Shown here: in pieces, positions 15,438 to 46,843 of the stretch
Numbering within the stretch: the stretch's first letter is position 1
Layout of the letters: each line of letters opens with the position of its first letter
NCBI GenBank assembly: GCA_030595125.1
Contig: JAUVDV010000010.1
Span: 1-64,000 of the forward strand
From: Deltaproteobacteria bacterium
GTDB lineage: Bacteria; Myxococcota_A; Polyangia; JAAYKL01
DNA length: 64,000 nucleotides
Reading direction: 5' to 3'
Made by a program: the position numbers and the translations under genes
The notes under the pieces: model-generated
The model's input: the letters and a program-made list of their open reading frames with translations, nothing else
Database searches by the model: none
Told to the model about the DNA's origin: nothing

Positions 15438-16610
15438 ATGAAAGAACGGACCAAACTGCTCCTGATGCTGGCTGTCTTCGCCGCATGCTGGTTTTTGCCG
15501 GTGGGCAACGAGCGCTTCATGTTCGCGGTGGACGAAGGGCTCGTGCTGCTCCGGTGGTACGCGCGCGAGCACGTCTTGTTATGCCTGGTTCCCGCCTTCT
15601 TCATCGCCGGCGCGATCAGTGTCTTCGTCAGCCAGAGCACCGTGATGAAGTACCTGGGGCCGAACGCAAAGAAGCTGGTCGCGTACCCCGTGGCAGCGGC
15701 CTCTGGCACCATTCTCGCAGTCTGCTCGTGCACGGTCCTGCCCCTCTTTGCCAGCATCCACAAGCGCGGCGCGGGGTTGGGACCTGCGACCGCCTTTTTG
15801 TACTCGGGGCCTGCGATCAACGTGCTGGCCATCATCCTCACGGCCCGCGTTCTGGGTTTCGAGCTGGGCCTCGCCCGGGCCATCGGTGCGATCCTCTTCT
15901 CGGTGGTGATCGGCCTCTTCATGCACTTCTTCTTCCGCAAGGAGGAGGCGGCGCGTCAGGCGCAAGGCGTGGTCACCATGCCCGACGAGGAGAGCGGCAG
16001 GAAGCTCTGGCAGGATGGAGTCTACTTCGCCGCCATGATCGGTGTGCTCGTGTTCGCCAACTGGGGCAAACCGGCTCAGGGAGACACCGGAATCTGGGCG
16101 GCCATTCACTCTGCAAAGTGGATCGTCACCGGACTCTTCGGGGTGGCGCTCGCAGCCTTTGTGTGGCGCTGGTTCGACAGGGACGAAATCGTCGACTGGA
16201 CCGAGTCGAGCTGGACTTTCGCCAAGCAGATCATGCCGCTTTTGTTGGCCGGTGTACTGGTCGCGGGTTTCCTGCTCGGAGGACCGGGAGGCGGCCGGGG
16301 TGTCATCCCCGGCGAATGGGTCAGCTCCATGGTCGGCGGCAACTCGTTATCTGCCAACCTCTTCGCGTCTGTGGCGGGCGCGTTCATGTACTTCGCCACC
16401 CTGACGGAGGTTCCCATTCTGGAGGGTTTGATCAACGCGGGCATGGGCAAGGGGCCCGCACTGGCCTTGTTGCTCGCCGGCCCGGCGCTGTCCCTGCCGA
16501 ACATGCTGGTAATAAGAAGTGTGATGGGCACCAGGAAGACCATGGTTTTCATAGGTCTGGTCGTGGTGCTCTCTACCGTTGCAGGTCTGCTCTACGGAGC
16601 CCTGCCTTGA
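15438..16610 (+). CDS. DUF318/ArsP-like permease
   Basis: 390 residues, about ten transmembrane helices in two halves. AVCSCTVLPLFASIHKRGAGLGPATAF and SGPAINVLAIILT, repeated in form as ATLTEVPILEGLINAGMGKGPALALLLAGPALSLPN, are hallmarks of the DUF318 permease family, which includes the organoarsenical exporter ArsP and SO_0444-type metal efflux proteins. The conserved CSC in the first half is present. Located between an ArsR regulator and thiol-redox proteins, it is best read as an efflux pump for a thiol-reactive metalloid or metal. The exact substrate cannot be told. Confidence 0.9.
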   Translation: MKERTKLLLMLAVFAACWFLPVGNERFMFAVDEGLVLLRWYAREHVLLCLVPAFFIAGAISVFVSQSTVMKYLGPNAKKLVAYPVAAASGTILAVCSCTVLPLFASIHKRGAGLGPATAFLYSGPAINVLAIILTARVLGFELGLARAIGAILFSVVIGLFMHFFFRKEEAARQAQGVVTMPDEESGRKLWQDGVYFAAMIGVLVFANWGKPAQGDTGIWAAIHSAKWIVTGLFGVALAAFVWRWFDRDEIVDWTESSWTFAKQIMPLLLAGVLVAGFLLGGPGGGRGVIPGEWVSSMVGGNSLSANLFASVAGAFMYFATLTEVPILEGLINAGMGKGPALALLLAGPALSLPNMLVIRSVMGTRKTMVFIGLVVVLSTVAGLLYGALP

Positions 16611-16621
16611 AGGAGGTCGTG

Positions 16622-16870
16622 ATGAAGATCGAAGTTTTGGGCACGGGATGCGCCAAATGCACCAAGCTCCACGCGCTGGTGGAGAAAGTAGTCGCACAGG
16701 TCGGCGCCGATGCCGAGGTCGTAAAGGTCGAGAGCCTGGACGACATTATCAACTATGGTGTCGCACTCACCCCGGCGCTGGTGATCGACGGCACGATCAA
16801 GGCTGCCGGGAGAATACCAAAAGCCGCGCAGATCGAAACCTGGCTTCAAGAGGCGGAGCCAAAGGAGTAA
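16622..16870 (+). CDS. Small thioredoxin-fold redox protein (TIGR00412 type)
   Basis: 82 residues: KIEVLGTGCAKCTKLHALVEK carries the CxxC (CAKC), and GVALTPALVIDGTIKAAGRIP carries the cis-Pro and the characteristic 'PALVIDG.I...G..P' ending of redox-active disulfide protein 2. A strong AAGGAGG precedes the ATG, 11 nt after the permease stop. This protein regularly sits beside DUF318 permeases. It probably moves electrons between the cytoplasm and CcdA or the permease Cys pair. Confidence 0.92.
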   Translation: MKIEVLGTGCAKCTKLHALVEKVVAQVGADAEVVKVESLDDIINYGVALTPALVIDGTIKAAGRIPKAAQIETWLQEAEPKE

Positions 16871-16876
16871 CTATCG

Positions 16877-17587
16877 ATGCTGGATGATCTGATGACCAAC
16901 GCGGGCGGGTACATCGACACTAATCCGTGGCTGGCTATCATGGCGGTGTTCGTAGGCGGCGTCCTGACCGCGTCCAATCCCTGCGTCCTCGCCATGATCC
17001 CGCTCACGATGAGCTTTGTGGCCGGGCGCAAGGAAGAAGGCAGGCCGGGGGTTCTTCGCGCCTTCGGTTTCTCCATGGTCTTCGTACTGGGGCTCTCGAT
17101 CACCTTCACGGTTCTGGGAATGGTCGCCGCGCTCGCCGGCAAGATGTACGGCGACGTATCGGGAGTGTGGAACTGGATCGTCGCCTTCGTCTGCGTCGCC
17201 ATGGGGATCCATCTCATGGACGTTGTGACCATTCCGATCCCGTCGTTTGGAGACAGGATCCTGCCCAGGACGCGAGGTTTTCTGGGCGCGCTGCTGCTCG
17301 GCCTGTTGTTCGGGCTGGTCTCGGCACCGTGCGCGGCCCCCATTCTGGTCGTGTTGTTGACCTATCTCGCGGGCTCGGGCGCTTCGGTTGCCTACGGCGG
17401 CACGCTGCTGTTGGTCTACGCCCTCGGACACAGTCTACTGATCCTCATCGCGGGTACCTCAATGGGCGCGGCCCGCACACTCATCGAAAACAAAAGGATG
17501 ACCGGAACAATGGCCATCCTTCGCAAGGTGGCGGGCGCGGTGATCGTGCTCGTCGGCCTCTACTTCGGCTACAGGGGTTTGATATGA
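16877..17587 (+). CDS. ccdA: CcdA-type thiol-disulfide electron transporter
   Basis: 236 residues, six transmembrane helices. The two redox cysteines sit in the conserved contexts ASNPCVLAMIPLT and VSAPCAAPILVV. CcdA/DsbD beta-domain proteins carry reducing equivalents across the inner membrane to extracytoplasmic thioredoxin-like partners. It lies 6 nt after the small thioredoxin and overlaps the next gene by 4 nt (ATGA), which places electron donor, membrane carrier and periplasmic acceptor in one operon. Confidence 0.93.
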   Translation: MLDDLMTNAGGYIDTNPWLAIMAVFVGGVLTASNPCVLAMIPLTMSFVAGRKEEGRPGVLRAFGFSMVFVLGLSITFTVLGMVAALAGKMYGDVSGVWNWIVAFVCVAMGIHLMDVVTIPIPSFGDRILPRTRGFLGALLLGLLFGLVSAPCAAPILVVLLTYLAGSGASVAYGGTLLLVYALGHSLLILIAGTSMGAARTLIENKRMTGTMAILRKVAGAVIVLVGLYFGYRGLI

Positions 17588-18024
17588 AAAGACAAGTTTT
17601 CAAAATCAGCATCGTCATGAGCGTGCTGTTCACGTTGGTGATGCTCGCAGCGAGCTGCAAGCAAGAAGTGGCGGCGCCCGAAAAAGCCGCAGTCACACCA
17701 GAGACTGCAAACACCTCGGCAACCCAGGCGGCGACATCAAGAGTGGCCAAGGTAGTGTTTGTCGGCCAGAAGCAGGCGTGCGACTGCACTCGCAAACGCA
17801 TCGACGGCTCATGGGCGGCGCTGCAGGCAGCTGCGGGCGCTCGCAAGCACATTCCTATCGAACGGATCTACATGGATACCGACGAGGCAAAAGTCGAGCC
17901 TTATGAGGAGATGCGCGCCATCATGGTGCTTCCGGCGATCTACCTGCTCGATGGATCCGGAAAGCTGCTCGACATGGTGCAAGGTGAGGTAACAGCCGAC
18001 AATTTCGACCGCATTCTACAATGA
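17584..18024 (+). CDS. Thioredoxin-like lipoprotein with CxC motif
   Basis: 146 residues. The signal peptide ends in the lipobox LAASC (Cys24), followed by a Thr/Ala/Glu-rich linker. The mature domain has KVVFVGQKQACDCTRKRI in place of the usual WCxxC, so the redox pair is Cys-Asp-Cys, then MVLPAIYLLDGSGKLLDMVQGE with the cis-Pro and thioredoxin-like C-terminal strand. It is probably the extracytoplasmic partner reduced by CcdA. The CxC spacing is unusual for a thioredoxin and could instead bind metal. The start overlaps the ccdA stop. Confidence 0.82.
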   Translation: MKRQVFKISIVMSVLFTLVMLAASCKQEVAAPEKAAVTPETANTSATQAATSRVAKVVFVGQKQACDCTRKRIDGSWAALQAAAGARKHIPIERIYMDTDEAKVEPYEEMRAIMVLPAIYLLDGSGKLLDMVQGEVTADNFDRILQ

Positions 18025-27719: not shown

Positions 27720-28340
27720 TCAGATATTCAGGCCTTCAACTATAGCGACCAGATCCAGTTGAACCCCGGAGGCCTCGCAGGCCACAACCGTCATATCCTC
27801 TGTGCTGAGAACGAAGACACCGGGTGCTGCGGGCCAGAGACCGTTTGCGTTCCAGAGTTCCAGGTTTGGGTTGTCGACAATGCGATAGCCGCCGTCCCAT
27901 CCGAAGGAGTCTATCATCGTGTTGATCTCCTCGATGGGAAGCAATCCGGTCTCGCCGTAGTAAGTACCAACCACTCTTCCGTTTGCTGCTTCAATCGCGT
28001 CCATTTGACTCGCCACTTCACCGAAGCGGACGTCACAAGGCGCTCATCCGGGGGCCCCGAGAACAAAGACCACGGACTTGACCGCCTTCTGGCACCAGAG
28101 GGCCTCCAGATTGAGATCCTCGTCGTAACCTACAAAAGTGTTCGGCGGCGCAACCTGGGCCATGTTCCACTGATAGGCTGCCTCCGGATACGGAGGACAG
28201 GTGACTTCTCCGTCCGTCCCCAACCCGTCGTCCAGACCGTTTCCGCCGCCTCCCTCGTCGTCACAGGCGACTACGCCCAGTCCCATGACCAGCATTATCG
28301 CACTGAGGAATAGCAATTTACCGATTGTTTTTGGTAACAT
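27720..28340 (-). CDS. Probable selenocysteine-containing thioredoxin-like lipoprotein (in-frame TGA = Sec)
   Basis: Two frames on this strand, 28340-28047 and 28043-27720, are in the same phase and separated by a single TGA (28046-28044). Read through, they give 206 residues: signal peptide with lipobox GVVAC (Cys26), SVVFVLGAPG-U99-A-P-C102, and a cis-Pro strand PAAPGVFVLS (Pro173). This is the thioredoxin/redoxin layout with UxxC where CxxC is expected. The start at MLPKTIGK has AAGGAG 7 nt upstream. A stem-loop suitable as a bacterial SECIS follows the TGA. No other stop interrupts the frame. The alternative is a nonsense mutation of a Cys codon (TGC/TGT to TGA), which cannot be excluded from one sequence. 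Confidence 0.75.
28007..28034 (-). promoter_or_regulatory. Candidate bacterial SECIS stem-loop
   Basis: Downstream of the in-frame TGA, CGCTTC-GGT-GAAGTG forms a six-pair stem (one G-T pair) with a G-rich loop, and GAC/GTC can pair outside an internal loop. The apical loop begins 22 nt after TGA, in the usual 16-37 nt range for bacterial SECIS elements. Confidence 0.5.
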
Positions 28341-28487
28341 TCGCATTCTCCTTACCGGCCAAGCCAAAGAGGTTTACGACTCCTGCAGGTTCCAGCTGCA
28401 CGAAACTCTACACCAATAGTATACACTCGTTTTGATCAAAGCACATCGTTCTTTTACATCTTCAGTCAATAAGTGTCCCTTGAACGT

Positions 28488-28509: not shown

Positions 28510-29334
28510 TTAACCTGGGCAGGCCCATGACTGACATGTAAATCCGGTTTCTCCCGCGCTCGGAGCGCACATGTCCCAGGTGGTGGGACAGTCACCCGGC
28601 TCGACGCACGGATCTCCATCGTAATGACATCCCTTGCTGATAAGCGGAGGAGGATCGAGAGAGCTGCAGATCGAATCGAAATAGGGCATGCAAACTCCCC
28701 CTGTTGAATACGTGCAATCCGAGTTGACCTTGCAGCCCACGTAAACACATATGTCCTTCTGAAACCCCCACGCTCCGACCGGTATGCATTGCTGCTCGGC
28801 GGGCGAGGGACAATCCGAGTCATCGTCGCATTCATCACAAATGCATTCGTTGTGCGGGTGTAAGAATCCCACGTAGTACTCCTGCACCAGGTAGCAATCG
28901 CAATCCACCCCGGGGCAATCCGCCGACGTGGTGCAATCATCGCTCCCCGGGTTGGGACTCGGAGAGGTTGTCGGCGTATCCGGCGGATAGATGCAGGTCC
29001 ACCATCCACCCGGCTCGTCCGGAACCAACTCGCAGGTGCCCCCTGTCACCAGGGTGCAATCGCCGTTGTCGATGCATTCGCCGCTGATGTCCGTGTCGCT
29101 GTCCGTATCGCTGTCCGTGTCGCTGTCCGTGTCGCTGTCCGTGTCGCTGTCCGTATCGCTGTCCGTGTCGCTGTCCGTATCGCTGTCCGTGTCGCTGTCC
29201 GTATCGCTGTCACCGTCTGTATCGGAATCCGTGGACGCGTCCGAAACGTTGTTGGGTTCCTGTACGTTTCCACACCCGGCAAACCCAACCACCGCGCACA
29301 ACAGTGCAATCAATGTTCCAAATTCAATTTTCAT
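28510..29334 (-). CDS. (S/T)D-stalk Cys-rich lipoprotein
   Basis: 274 residues. Lipobox GFAGC (Cys21), a long (TDSD)n stalk at ~34-82, then a domain with about 24 cysteines in short knots (ECIDNGDCTL, CNECIC-like spacing, DDCTTSADCPG, DSDCPSPAEQQC). Such repeated 'C..D.DC....C' patterns are common in myxobacterial surface lipoproteins and are probably disulfide-bonded. No catalytic motif is visible. Ends in SWACPG. Confidence 0.82.
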   Translation of the reverse strand: MKIEFGTLIALLCAVVGFAGCGNVQEPNNVSDASTDSDTDGDSDTDSDTDSDTDSDTDSDTDSDTDSDTDSDTDSDTDSDTDISGECIDNGDCTLVTGGTCELVPDEPGGWWTCIYPPDTPTTSPSPNPGSDDCTTSADCPGVDCDCYLVQEYYVGFLHPHNECICDECDDDSDCPSPAEQQCIPVGAWGFQKDICVYVGCKVNSDCTYSTGGVCMPYFDSICSSLDPPPLISKGCHYDGDPCVEPGDCPTTWDMCAPSAGETGFTCQSWACPG

Positions 29335-31583: not shown

Positions 31584-32309
31584 TTAGTAGTAGTCGACTG
31601 TTATGCTTCGGAGGCAGACCGTCGGAACGCCGATGGTGTCCACCACCATGAGATCGCTGAAAAGCACACCAAACCCCTCGACCCATTCCATGTAAGCCCC
31701 CGTGACAATCGGTCGATACTCCACATGGGCTCCGCCGTCGGGCCAGTAGTAGAGATCCGCCTCTGATACGTCAATCGGATTGCCGCAAAAATACCCTCCT
31801 TCCCCATACACTCCGACAATGCTCTGGGAGGTGTAATCCACTTCGGGCAGGCCTGCGTCGCCCCCCATGGTATCCTGCACCGCCGTATCCAGAACGGTGT
31901 GACCGTCCGGCCCCACGATTTTGAAATAGTACGAGTTCCAGCTGCCGCCGCTTTCGCAAATTATCTCGGGAGAAGCATCGCAGAAAGGCGACGGTAAATA
32001 CCACCACAGTCCGGGGATCATAGCGAGACCCGCATCGCCCGGGTGCACCTCAGTCGATGCATCGCACTGTCCGAAATCGTCGTAACTGGACCATGACCAG
32101 GAACCGCATTCTGGTTCTGACTCCGTTTCCGTGACTGTATCGGTATCGGTATCCGTGTCGGTATCCGAATCCGCGTCAGTGTCCACGTCCGTGTCCGTGT
32201 CGGTATCGGTGGTCCCGCTGTCGATACCGCTGTCGATGCCCTGCGTGTCGTTCGAGCAGCCGGCGATGACCACGGCCAAGATCAGTAAAAAATATTTGAT
32301 ATCGATCAT
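31584..32309 (-). CDS. (S/T)D-stalk lipoprotein, unknown domain
   Basis: 241 residues. Lipobox VIAGC (Cys18), stalk of TD/SD/AD/VD dipeptides at ~32-60, then a domain rich in Tyr, Trp and Gly with five Cys (ECGSW, GQCDAS, FCDASPEIICES, YFCGN, VCLR). No known family recognised; secondary structure looks mainly beta. Followed directly by a solo REP-like unit. Confidence 0.8.
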   Translation of the reverse strand: MIDIKYFLLILAVVIAGCSNDTQGIDSGIDSGTTDTDTDTDVDTDADSDTDTDTDTDTVTETESEPECGSWSWSSYDDFGQCDASTEVHPGDAGLAMIPGLWWYLPSPFCDASPEIICESGGSWNSYYFKIVGPDGHTVLDTAVQDTMGGDAGLPEVDYTSQSIVGVYGEGGYFCGNPIDVSEADLYYWPDGGAHVEYRPIVTGAYMEWVEGFGVLFSDLMVVDTIGVPTVCLRSITVDYY

Positions 32310-36488: not shown

Positions 36489-37844
36489 TTAAACGCAACC
36501 CATGTCGAGCATGGCGTTGGCGACCTTGAGGAAGCCGGCGATGTTGGCGCCATTGACATAGTTGCCGGGGGTGCCGTAGGCCTCGGCGGCATCGAAGGCC
36601 TGCTTGTGAATGGCCTTCATGATGTTCAGGAGCCTGCCGTCGACCTCCTCACGGGTCCAGGAGAGACGCAGACTGTTCTGGGACATCTCGAGACCGGAAA
36701 CGGCCACTCCGCCCGCGTTGGCAGCCTTGCCGGGACCGTAGAGAACCTTGGCGTCGAGGAAGACATTCACGCCTTCTGGTACGGTGGGCATATTGGCGCC
36801 CTCGGACACGACGAATACGCCGTTCTTGACCAGGTTCTGCGCGTCCTGCTTGTTGATCTCGTTTTGAGTAGCGCTCGGCAGTGCCACGTCGGCCTTGACG
36901 TCCCACAGAGGATTGTGGTCCAGGGACGAATCGACAGCCGTGTAGATGGCCTTGGGGTACTTGTCGGCGTATTCCTTGATGCGGCCACGCCTGACGTTCT
37001 TGATCTCCTGGATGAAGGCCAGTTTCTCGCGATCGATGCCCTCCTCGTCGAGGATGAAGCCCCCCGAGTCAGAGACGGTGATAACCTTGGCGCCCAGATC
37101 GAGGGCCTTCTCGGTAGCGTACTGAGCCACGTTGCCGGAGCCGGAGACCAGGCAGACCTTGTCCTTGAGGGATTTGCCGTTGGCCTTGAGCATCTCCTCG
37201 GCGAAGTACACCTGGCCGTAGCCTGTTGCCTGGGGACGAATGAGGCTGCCGCCCCAGCCGGCGCCCTTGCCGGTGAGCACGCCGACGAACTCGTTGCGAA
37301 TGCGCTTGTACTGGCCGAACATGAAACCGATCTCGCGGCCGCCCACGCCGATGTCACCGGCGGGGATGTCCGTGTTGGCGCCGATGTGCTTGCACAGCTC
37401 GGTCATGAAGGACTGGGTGAAGGCCATGACCTCGTTGTCGGACTTGCCCTTGGGATCGAAGTTGGATCCGCCCTTGCCGCCGCCCATGGGGAGCGTGGTG
37501 AGAGCGTTCTTGAATACTTGCTCGAAGGCCAGGAACTTGAGGATGGACAGATTGACCGTGGGATGGAAACGCAGGCCGCCCTTGTAGGGGCCGATCGCGC
37601 TGTTCATCTCGATTCTGTAACCCTTGTTGACCTGGATCTCGCCCTTGTCGTCAACCCACGGAACGCGGAAGAGGATGACCCGCTCCGGCTCCGCCACGCG
37701 CTCGAGGATCTTGGCGCTCCGATACTCCGGATGCTTGTCCAGAACGGGGGAAAGCGATTCGAACACTTCCAATACCGCCTGGTGAAACTCTGGTTCGTTC
37801 TGGTTTTGCTCTACGACCTTCTGATAGATGCTTTCTGTGCTCAT
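36489..37844 (-). CDS. gdhA: Glutamate dehydrogenase (NADP-type, ~450 residues)
   Basis: 451 residues from MSTESIYQKVV (GGAG upstream). Reversible amination of 2-oxoglutarate. KGGLRFHPTVNLSILKFLAFEQ and PMGGGKGGSNFDPKG contain the catalytic Lys region; GYGQVYFAEEML and VSGSGNVAQYATEKALDLG form the nucleotide-binding fold. Length and the GSGNVA pattern fit the hexameric NADP enzyme. It lies between skp and lpxD, an unusual place. Confidence 0.97.
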   Translation of the reverse strand: MSTESIYQKVVEQNQNEPEFHQAVLEVFESLSPVLDKHPEYRSAKILERVAEPERVILFRVPWVDDKGEIQVNKGYRIEMNSAIGPYKGGLRFHPTVNLSILKFLAFEQVFKNALTTLPMGGGKGGSNFDPKGKSDNEVMAFTQSFMTELCKHIGANTDIPAGDIGVGGREIGFMFGQYKRIRNEFVGVLTGKGAGWGGSLIRPQATGYGQVYFAEEMLKANGKSLKDKVCLVSGSGNVAQYATEKALDLGAKVITVSDSGGFILDEEGIDREKLAFIQEIKNVRRGRIKEYADKYPKAIYTAVDSSLDHNPLWDVKADVALPSATQNEINKQDAQNLVKNGVFVVSEGANMPTVPEGVNVFLDAKVLYGPGKAANAGGVAVSGLEMSQNSLRLSWTREEVDGRLLNIMKAIHKQAFDAAEAYGTPGNYVNGANIAGFLKVANAMLDMGCV

Positions 37845-38005
37845 GCGCCTCTCCTGTTCTCTTTGACTATGGCGCCCCAGCGACCAACCCACCGACCTGT
37901 GGCAGTCACCTGCCAGGCGCCCATTTCGAGTACTGCAATACCCTCGATTCCCATTACGTTCAAATGATTTATGTCAAGTTCTGAAGAAAAAGAGGACGGG
38001 CAGGA

Positions 38006-45394: not shown

Positions 45395-46843
45395 CTACAG
45401 CAGGTTCATCAGATGCTGCTTGATACCATCACGGGTCTTTTCGTCGGGACAATAATGAAGCGCTCGCTCCCATGTCTCGATTGATTTGAACTTGAAACCG
45501 GTCTTCTGATACAGCATGGCGAGGTTCTTGAGCGCGGGGAAATAGCTCGGCTCCAGATCCAGCGCGCTCTCCAGCTCTCTGATGGCCTGGTAGTTGAGCG
45601 CTTTCTTGCCCAGAATCAACGCAAGGTTGTAGTGCAGCTTGAACGCCAGCGGATCGATCTTGAGCCCTTTTCGCAGGAGCTCAATTGCCATGTCGACCTT
45701 TCCCTCGCGGTACGCCGTCACACTGGCGGCAAGTATCTCTTCGGCCTGCTCAGAGAGGTTCTCGGGCGGCTTTTCATCCTTGTCGGAACTGATGGCGTTC
45801 AGGTGCATCTCCACCTTCTCGACGAACTCACCGAGCTTGAAGGGCTTCTCCATGAAGTCGTCCACACCGTACGAGTCCTTCAGGTCCTGCGCATATCGCC
45901 AGCCACGATAGATGGCGGAGATCATTATTACCGGGATGTGACCGTATTTCTTGCTGCCCTTGATCTTCTTGCAGATATCGAAACCGTGGACCTCCGGCAA
46001 CATGGCGTCGAGGATAATCATGTCCGGGTTCTCGGTCTGGACCATTTTGATGGCTTCCAGCCCCCGCCCGGCGGTGACCACCTTGTAGCCCTTTTCGGTC
46101 AGAACCCTCGATATGAGCAACCGGATGTCGTCCTCATCATCGACAACCAGGATCTTCTTGGCGGCATCCGGGCGCGCCTCTGTCAAGGTGGGCTCGCGAG
46201 CCATGGGGATGGACAGCGCCTCATCCGAAAGATCGATGTCTATCTCCAGGGAAAGATCGTCCTGCGCAGGCTGCTCCTTGTCGTCGGGAAGAATCGTCGC
46301 ATTGGAAATATGCTGTGGTGTCGGCCCGACGGAATCGAGGGGTTCTTCCGCACGCGAGACAAAACGCTTTCCACAGTATTTTTCCTCGCCCGTCGCCCTG
46401 GCCTCGTAGCATTTTTCCACGCACTTCAATATGTGCGCGTGGAGCGCAACGTGAGGGAACACGCGCTTGCCCGAAACAAATTCCACCTCGTCGATGACCC
46501 GTTGATCGTCCGGGTTGGCCATGGCGAGATTGATGCTGTCCTCCGATACGGAAAGTGGGAGAATTATGTGCTGCGTTGCGATCTCTATGGGGATGATGTC
46601 CAGGCACGCAAGATCGATATCCACCTCGTCGAGGTTGACGGCCGGAATACCCGCCTGCTCGCTCAACGCCTTGAGCAAACGCACCTCGTCGGTTAACCCC
46701 TTTTTCAGAACCCTGGAGGCCAGCCGCTCGTGCGGCTCGTCCTCGCCCTTTTGTTCGTCGAGGATAGAGTCCAGCTGTTGTGGGCTGACCAGTTTCCGCT
46801 TCAGAAGGATTTTTCCAAGTTGAGTCTTGCTGTTCTCGCCCAT
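45395..46843 (-). CDS. MshEN - response regulator receiver - TPR protein
   Basis: 482 residues. An N-terminal MshEN-like domain (~5-150; LGKILLKRKLVSPQQLDSIL, IPAVNLDEVDIDLACLDIIP), of the kind that binds c-di-GMP in some ATPases; a linker; a receiver domain (~228-345; ILVVDDEDDIRLLISRVL, phospho-acceptor in PDMIILDAMLPE, conserved Lys in FMEKPF); and TPR helices at the C-terminus (ALNYQAIRELESALDLEPSY). First gene of the operon with AgmX-like, SctS and SctT proteins; the next gene starts 7 nt on. Probably a signalling adaptor. Confidence 0.9.
   Translation of the reverse strand: MGENSKTQLGKILLKRKLVSPQQLDSILDEQKGEDEPHERLASRVLKKGLTDEVRLLKALSEQAGIPAVNLDEVDIDLACLDIIPIEIATQHIILPLSVSEDSINLAMANPDDQRVIDEVEFVSGKRVFPHVALHAHILKCVEKCYEARATGEEKYCGKRFVSRAEEPLDSVGPTPQHISNATILPDDKEQPAQDDLSLEIDIDLSDEALSIPMAREPTLTEARPDAAKKILVVDDEDDIRLLISRVLTEKGYKVVTAGRGLEAIKMVQTENPDMIILDAMLPEVHGFDICKKIKGSKKYGHIPVIMISAIYRGWRYAQDLKDSYGVDDFMEKPFKLGEFVEKVEMHLNAISSDKDEKPPENLSEQAEEILAASVTAYREGKVDMAIELLRKGLKIDPLAFKLHYNLALILGKKALNYQAIRELESALDLEPSYFPALKNLAMLYQKTGFKFKSIETWERALHYCPDEKTRDGIKQHLMNLL

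Follow-up and report, generated by a model that had tools for sequence, protein, structure and literature searches.

A gene on the minus strand of the window (the whole 64,000-nucleotide stretch of DNA analyzed here) very probably encodes a selenoprotein, a reading in which the actual insertion of selenocysteine (Sec) is deduced from sequence. By analogy with related oxidoreductases, its product is most likely an extracytoplasmic, lipid-anchored thiol/selenol oxidoreductase with a UxxC active site. The initial annotation had proposed a selenoprotein lipoprotein, and this proposal is supported by conservation of the TGA codon, the Sec genes of the genome, the hairpin that follows the TGA, and the Cys homologues; the reading frame, Sec/Cys exchange, covariation in the SECIS hairpin, the Sec machinery, the lipobox, and the thioredoxin-like profile are likewise evident from sequence.

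The coding sequence (27723–28340, minus strand) runs from an ATG at 28340 to 27723, where it is closed by a terminal TGA stop (27722–27720), and contains a single further in-frame TGA (28046–28044, minus strand), which is codon 99 and alone separates an upstream from a downstream open frame of identical phase. The two frames had been proposed to join across this one codon, and they do so into a protein of 206 residues with U at residue 99. As had also been anticipated, the gene is divided by mechanical ORF calling, which returned pieces of 107 and 98 amino acids. A predicted Shine-Dalgarno sequence, AAGGAG (28348–28353, minus strand), lies 7 nt 5' of the ATG. The signal peptide (28263–28340, minus strand) carries the lipobox upstream of the TGA that the annotation had described, VVAC, ending at the putatively lipidated Cys26 (codon 28265–28263) with Asp at +2. 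It is followed by a Gly/Asp-rich linker, read from the sequence (residues 27–47; 28200–28262, minus strand), in place of which long (Ser-Asp)n repeats often stand in the paralogues, and then by the thioredoxin-like domain (residues 48–206; 27723–28199, minus strand). Within this domain the TGA occupies, as first noted, the first position of the expected CxxC, in the motif GAPG-U-A-P-C (U99/C102); that position is Cys in all Cys homologues. The conserved Pro expected ahead of the last strand was found in the alignment as Pro173, and is present in most homologues.

In two other lipoproteins encoded in the window (28510–29334 and 31584–32309, minus strand), the lipidated Cys is followed by long (Asp-Ser/Thr)n repeats, a linker type common to many of the selenoprotein paralogues. 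Besides codon 99, a read-through scan of the window returned seven TGAs set in C/U-x-x-C/U contexts; two were inspected, and both were taken as chance: that at 37403–37405 (minus strand) because it lies inside a glutamate-dehydrogenase-like ORF (36489–37892), and that at 45482–45484 (plus strand) because its translation resembles the antisense of a similar gene.

Assignment of the fold rests on distant similarity. The window protein matched no Pfam or NCBIfam model, and no homologue reached a cut-off in the Pfam tables examined, where the weak matches were to AhpC-TSA, Redoxin, ResA, and thioredoxin; the highest-scoring homologue had 24.7 bits, below the cut-off of 26 for PF00578. Profile matches to PDB structures were to PDI, ResA, tryparedoxin, and DsbE, all weak (E ~1e-4), and in the profile alignments printed the CxxC active site and its flanks align to PDI. 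The features of a thioredoxin fold, namely a CxxC-type site, a conserved Pro before a later strand, and detectable profile similarity, are present; an AlphaFold2 model of the window protein from its single sequence was of low confidence (pLDDT 36.6). A lipobox-like signal was detected by pattern in 60 of the 68 family members described below with the looser version of the pattern, and in 31 of 68 with the stricter version. If the rule of E. coli also holds here, Asp at +2 would direct retention in the inner membrane.

We infer the location of the protein, the direction of electron flow, and its substrates, and propose the following scheme. SelB would recognize the hairpin immediately after codon 99 and deliver Sec-tRNA, so that this UGA is read as selenocysteine and the terminal UGA serves for ordinary termination. 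Following export and lipidation at Cys26, the protein would be held at a membrane, its thioredoxin-like domain lying outside the cytoplasm on a flexible linker. There, U99-x-x-C102 would carry out thiol/selenol-disulfide exchange, with Sec as the attacking and Cys as the resolving residue. The protein would most likely act as a reductase that receives its electrons from the cytoplasm via CcdA/DsbD. Duplication would have enlarged the family, presumably so that the copies could serve different partners or oxidants. DsbD/CcdA-type transporters are present in all six genomes with TGA-bearing members, and the window itself encodes a CcdA-like membrane protein (DsbD_TM; 16877–17587, plus strand), a possible electron donor to extracytoplasmic thioredoxins; a link from this CcdA to the selenoprotein is a possible electron route. 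The CcdA gene lies in a group (15438–18024) that also encodes a permease-like protein, a small CxxC thioredoxin-like protein, and a lipoprotein with a CDC motif, and that looks like a membrane thiol-redox unit.

Going by the UxxC thioredoxins, disulfide reductase activity is the function that we moderately favor. The selenoprotein might alternatively reduce peroxides or bind metals or metalloids outside the cytoplasm, as an AhpC/TSA-like enzyme or a trap. The best Pfam matches of the homologues, AhpC-TSA and Redoxin, would agree with such a role, albeit below cut-off, and both the UxxU and CxxU variants and the many paralogues would suit a sacrificial or scavenging protein. However, a UxxC motif combined with a cis-Pro-like residue is the typical layout for thiol-disulfide exchange, and the structures retrieved by profile were those of PDI, ResA, and tryparedoxin; we therefore consider the peroxidase or trap function doubtful, though a real contender.

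The in-frame TGA is conserved. In G002, a different species of the same genus, the orthologue shares 83% amino acid identity and the same gene order, and has kept the TGA. Between the two genes, 21 of 42 differences upstream of the TGA and 23 of 41 downstream fall at third codon positions; this excess on both sides is the pattern of purifying selection, as judged from sequence, and extends beyond the TGA. A second congener, the metagenome-assembled genome (MAG) CSMAG_220 (JAUVAN01, labelled Deltaproteobacteria), contains the C-terminal part of the gene at a contig end, and this fragment was the only match in a contig search with the single window protein. The name CSMAG also appears in a global cold-seep genome catalogue (PMC10491686), a match by name only. 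The gene belongs to a large, lineage-specific family: a profile built from the first homologues recovered 68 loci, spread over 8 of the 14 genomes in the taxonomic family, and 53 of these loci, including the window gene, have an in-frame TGA. Nearly all of these codons (55 of 57) lie within (U/C)xx(U/C), mostly as UxxC, with UxxU and CxxU variants. Three loci (L029, L031, and L072) are of the UxxU type, with two in-frame TGAs three codons apart and a predicted diselenide motif, and four (L096, L100, L107, and L110) are CxxU (SSWC-S-T-U), with Sec at the second position, and occur in all three species of the window genome's genus.

Sec-encoding members are unevenly distributed: six in the window genome, five in G001, six in G002, 26 in G003, one in G006, and nine in G007. 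The 7.7-Mb MAG with the largest number, G003, has at least 26 Sec paralogues; it is fragmented (~520 contigs, 4% contamination), and in the tree its copies are divergent paralogues and not strain duplicates. Beyond the taxonomic family, homologues were found in 65 of 379 genomes of the wider phylum. Of the 27 that were read, 24 have Cys, invariant in the column of U99 in the alignment. The other three (L134, L135, and L137) form a separate Sec group in the same superfamily, with the motif PAW-U-P-x-C (AWUPxC), in other families of the phylum. The initial annotation had predicted Cys or U at residue 99 of homologues, and the residue is indeed either Cys or encoded by TGA. A quick tree requires seven Sec/Cys changes, at least six of them forced by well-supported branches. 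No relatives were found among the phages and viral contigs searched.

A hairpin with the properties of a bacterial SECIS follows codon 99. The predicted element (28006–28035, minus strand; MFE -14.6 kcal/mol) consists of a 4-bp lower stem (28035–28032 with 28009–28006, minus strand), a 7-bp upper stem (28029–28023 with 28019–28013, minus strand; nt 15–31 after the TGA), and an apical loop, GGU (28022–28020, minus strand; nt 22–24 after the TGA, a spacing of 21 nt). The hairpin previously placed at 22 nt downstream is thus real, except that its stem starts at nt 15 and it is the loop that lies at nt 22–24. In the published bacterial model, the loop is of 3–9 nt at 16–37 nt from the UGA (PMC13188914), with G in its first two positions, often followed by G/U (PMC13188914; bSECISearch). 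The window hairpin conforms to these rules for loop, stem, and spacing, so the suggested SECIS check bore out the annotation. Taken singly the element is modest, with an isolated upper stem of -7.2 kcal/mol and a z-score of only -1.29 for the 46-nt fold. It lies 4 nt farther downstream than the main register of the family, and the loop of the G002 orthologue is GUU in place of GGU.

At the level of the family, GU was found at nt 18–19 after the UGA in 29 of the 53 Sec genes, mostly as a GUU loop with a closing stem of ~7 bp. Covariation was assessed in 28 ungapped paralogue sequences in one register, picked by the loop alone. Each of the seven stem pairs has double-sided changes, 88.8% of cells are paired (26–40% when the register was slid), and the covariation score was 0.853, compared with 0.228 for shuffled and at most 0.194 for slid alignments. 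The Cys paralogues show no pairing at the stem position (39%). When the criteria of the published model for loop, stem, and spacing (PMC13188914) were applied, with at least 5 bp and -3 kcal/mol or better, 44 of 53 Sec genes had a hairpin, compared with 23% in synonymous-codon shuffles (maximum in 100 sets, 21 of 53) and one of eight Cys genes. Over all Sec genes, local folding strength peaks directly after the TGA. Six loci (L085, L086, L092, L097, L098, and L105) have a second type of SECIS-like hairpin, with AGUU in the loop region and farther from the TGA (~nt 29–33), which was seen in no genomes other than the two that have a second selB gene; as these loci group together as a single clade of the quick tree, their shared type may reflect descent only.

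The genome search that had been suggested for selA, selB, selC, and selD found all four in the window genome (5.39 Mb, 95% complete): a selA match (E = 4e-105), selB, tRNA-Sec (selC; anticodon TCA), and selD (E = 2e-116; G000:C43:6631-7551, L035). The selD gene has its own in-frame TGA, at GSG-U-ASK, which corresponds to the known UxxK Sec site of SelD selenoproteins (PMC13188914). Neither G001 nor G002 yielded selA, probably because of assembly gaps, as selB and tRNA-Sec are present in both. Among the 14 genomes of the taxonomic family, TGA-bearing members occur in six of seven with tRNA-Sec and none of seven without it (Fisher p = 0.005, which is indicative only, because the genomes are related). 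One genome without tRNA-Sec and selB, G011, has the Cys form only. The genomes with the largest expansions, G003 and G007, each have selA, selB, and tRNA-Sec genes in two copies (G003, C30:14654-17841 plus C441/C341/C421; G007, C97:11007-14199 plus C114:9919-13367), and in both genomes one of the sets forms a compact selA-selB-selC cluster. Contamination of the MAGs is a possible source of the double sets, but a similar cluster is found in both genomes.

Three readings without Sec can be weighed against these data. If the TGA specified Trp, Cys, or another residue through a genome-wide change of code or a suppressor tRNA, the frame would be just as open, as it is under any sense reading. However, TGA also serves as the normal terminal stop, both in the window gene and in 15 of the 53 family genes that contain TGA, which makes general reassignment very unlikely; Trp is freely encoded by TGG (338 codons), the in-frame TGAs fall almost exclusively at redox motifs, and the gene has its hairpin and the genome its full Sec machinery, so that recoding without Sec is hardly credible. 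Nor do we give appreciable weight to two short proteins made without readthrough, a 98-residue lipoprotein and a downstream 98-amino-acid ORF (GTG at 28016): both ORFs were called mechanically, but each half would be half a thioredoxin fold and the Cys homologues, which had been named as a possible contradiction should they end before the TGA, are continuous through it. Finally, a pseudogene or a sequencing or assembly error, that is, a nonsense TGA in an ordinary Cys thioredoxin-like lipoprotein, could arise in a MAG by one base change (TGC to TGA) and accounts for a single stop, but this explanation, to which we assign almost no probability, is already refuted by conservation: the same TGA occurs in the independently assembled genome of another species, which makes an error very unlikely, 53 divergent genes have a TGA at their active site, the purifying pattern continues 3' of it, the hairpin covaries, and the interruptions are TGA, with an internal TAA or TAG in only one of 68 family frames.

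Because of the cost of selenocysteine, a bacterium's selenoproteins usually number few in any one family. In this case, an exported lipoprotein family has multiplied, and most copies keep both Sec and the SECIS hairpin. The six or more Sec/Cys changes along the tree offer a natural series on why Sec is kept or lost, and the 28 aligned natural variants, with full covariation, bear on the minimal hairpin bound by SelB. The family also opens the question of what role a membrane-anchored set of selenoproteins has in uncultured bacteria. It is conceivable, albeit improbable, that the members of this undescribed family make up a lipid-anchored, extracytoplasmic complement of selenol proteins, and that its expansion to at least 26 Sec paralogues in one genome goes together with two complete Sec systems (two each of selA, selB, and selC), which may have shared out the two SECIS loop types between them. 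As standard callers would split or shorten such genes at the TGA, much of the redox protein complement of the lineage would be missed in automatic annotation.

The general type of selenoprotein is already known: a 2026 review of prokaryotic selenoproteins tabulates many UxxC thioredoxin-like families (PMC13188914). Its text does not contain the word lipoprotein, and our search of open-access text found no literature on a selenocysteine thioredoxin-like lipoprotein family. None of the NCBIfam selenoprotein models significantly matched the window protein or the family members. The nearest of these, NF053656 (TUGYCR motif thioredoxin-fold (seleno)protein), shares the thioredoxin fold and Sec/Cys pairs; its match to four members is weak and far from significant (best E = 0.036), and its motif, TUGYCR, is not in the window protein (GUAPCD). 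Like ResA/TlpA, the window protein would have an anchored, extracytoplasmic thioredoxin fold of the CxxC type, and the ResA profile match extends over 60–100 residues; unlike them, it has Sec instead of Cys and a lipid anchor, and the similarity is low (E ~1e-4). With the Sec thioredoxin and Prx-like thiol:disulfide oxidoreductase of the review (PMC13188914), the family shares a thioredoxin-like fold, Sec at the first position of UxxC, UxxU variants, and a bacterial SECIS just downstream. In contrast to these, it falls below the cut-offs of PF00085, PF00578, and PF08534, and has a lipoprotein signal, often a long acidic linker, and many paralogues. Compared with bacterial SECIS elements in general, about half of its members follow a narrow consensus, with a 7-bp stem and a G-U-U loop at 17 nt. 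Within what was searchable, three things appear to be new: the family itself, its combination of a lipid anchor and long linkers, and the extent to which it has expanded; given that the largest bacterial totals of selenoprotein genes are 57 and 63 (PMC13188914), 26 Sec genes of one family in a single MAG is a notable number.
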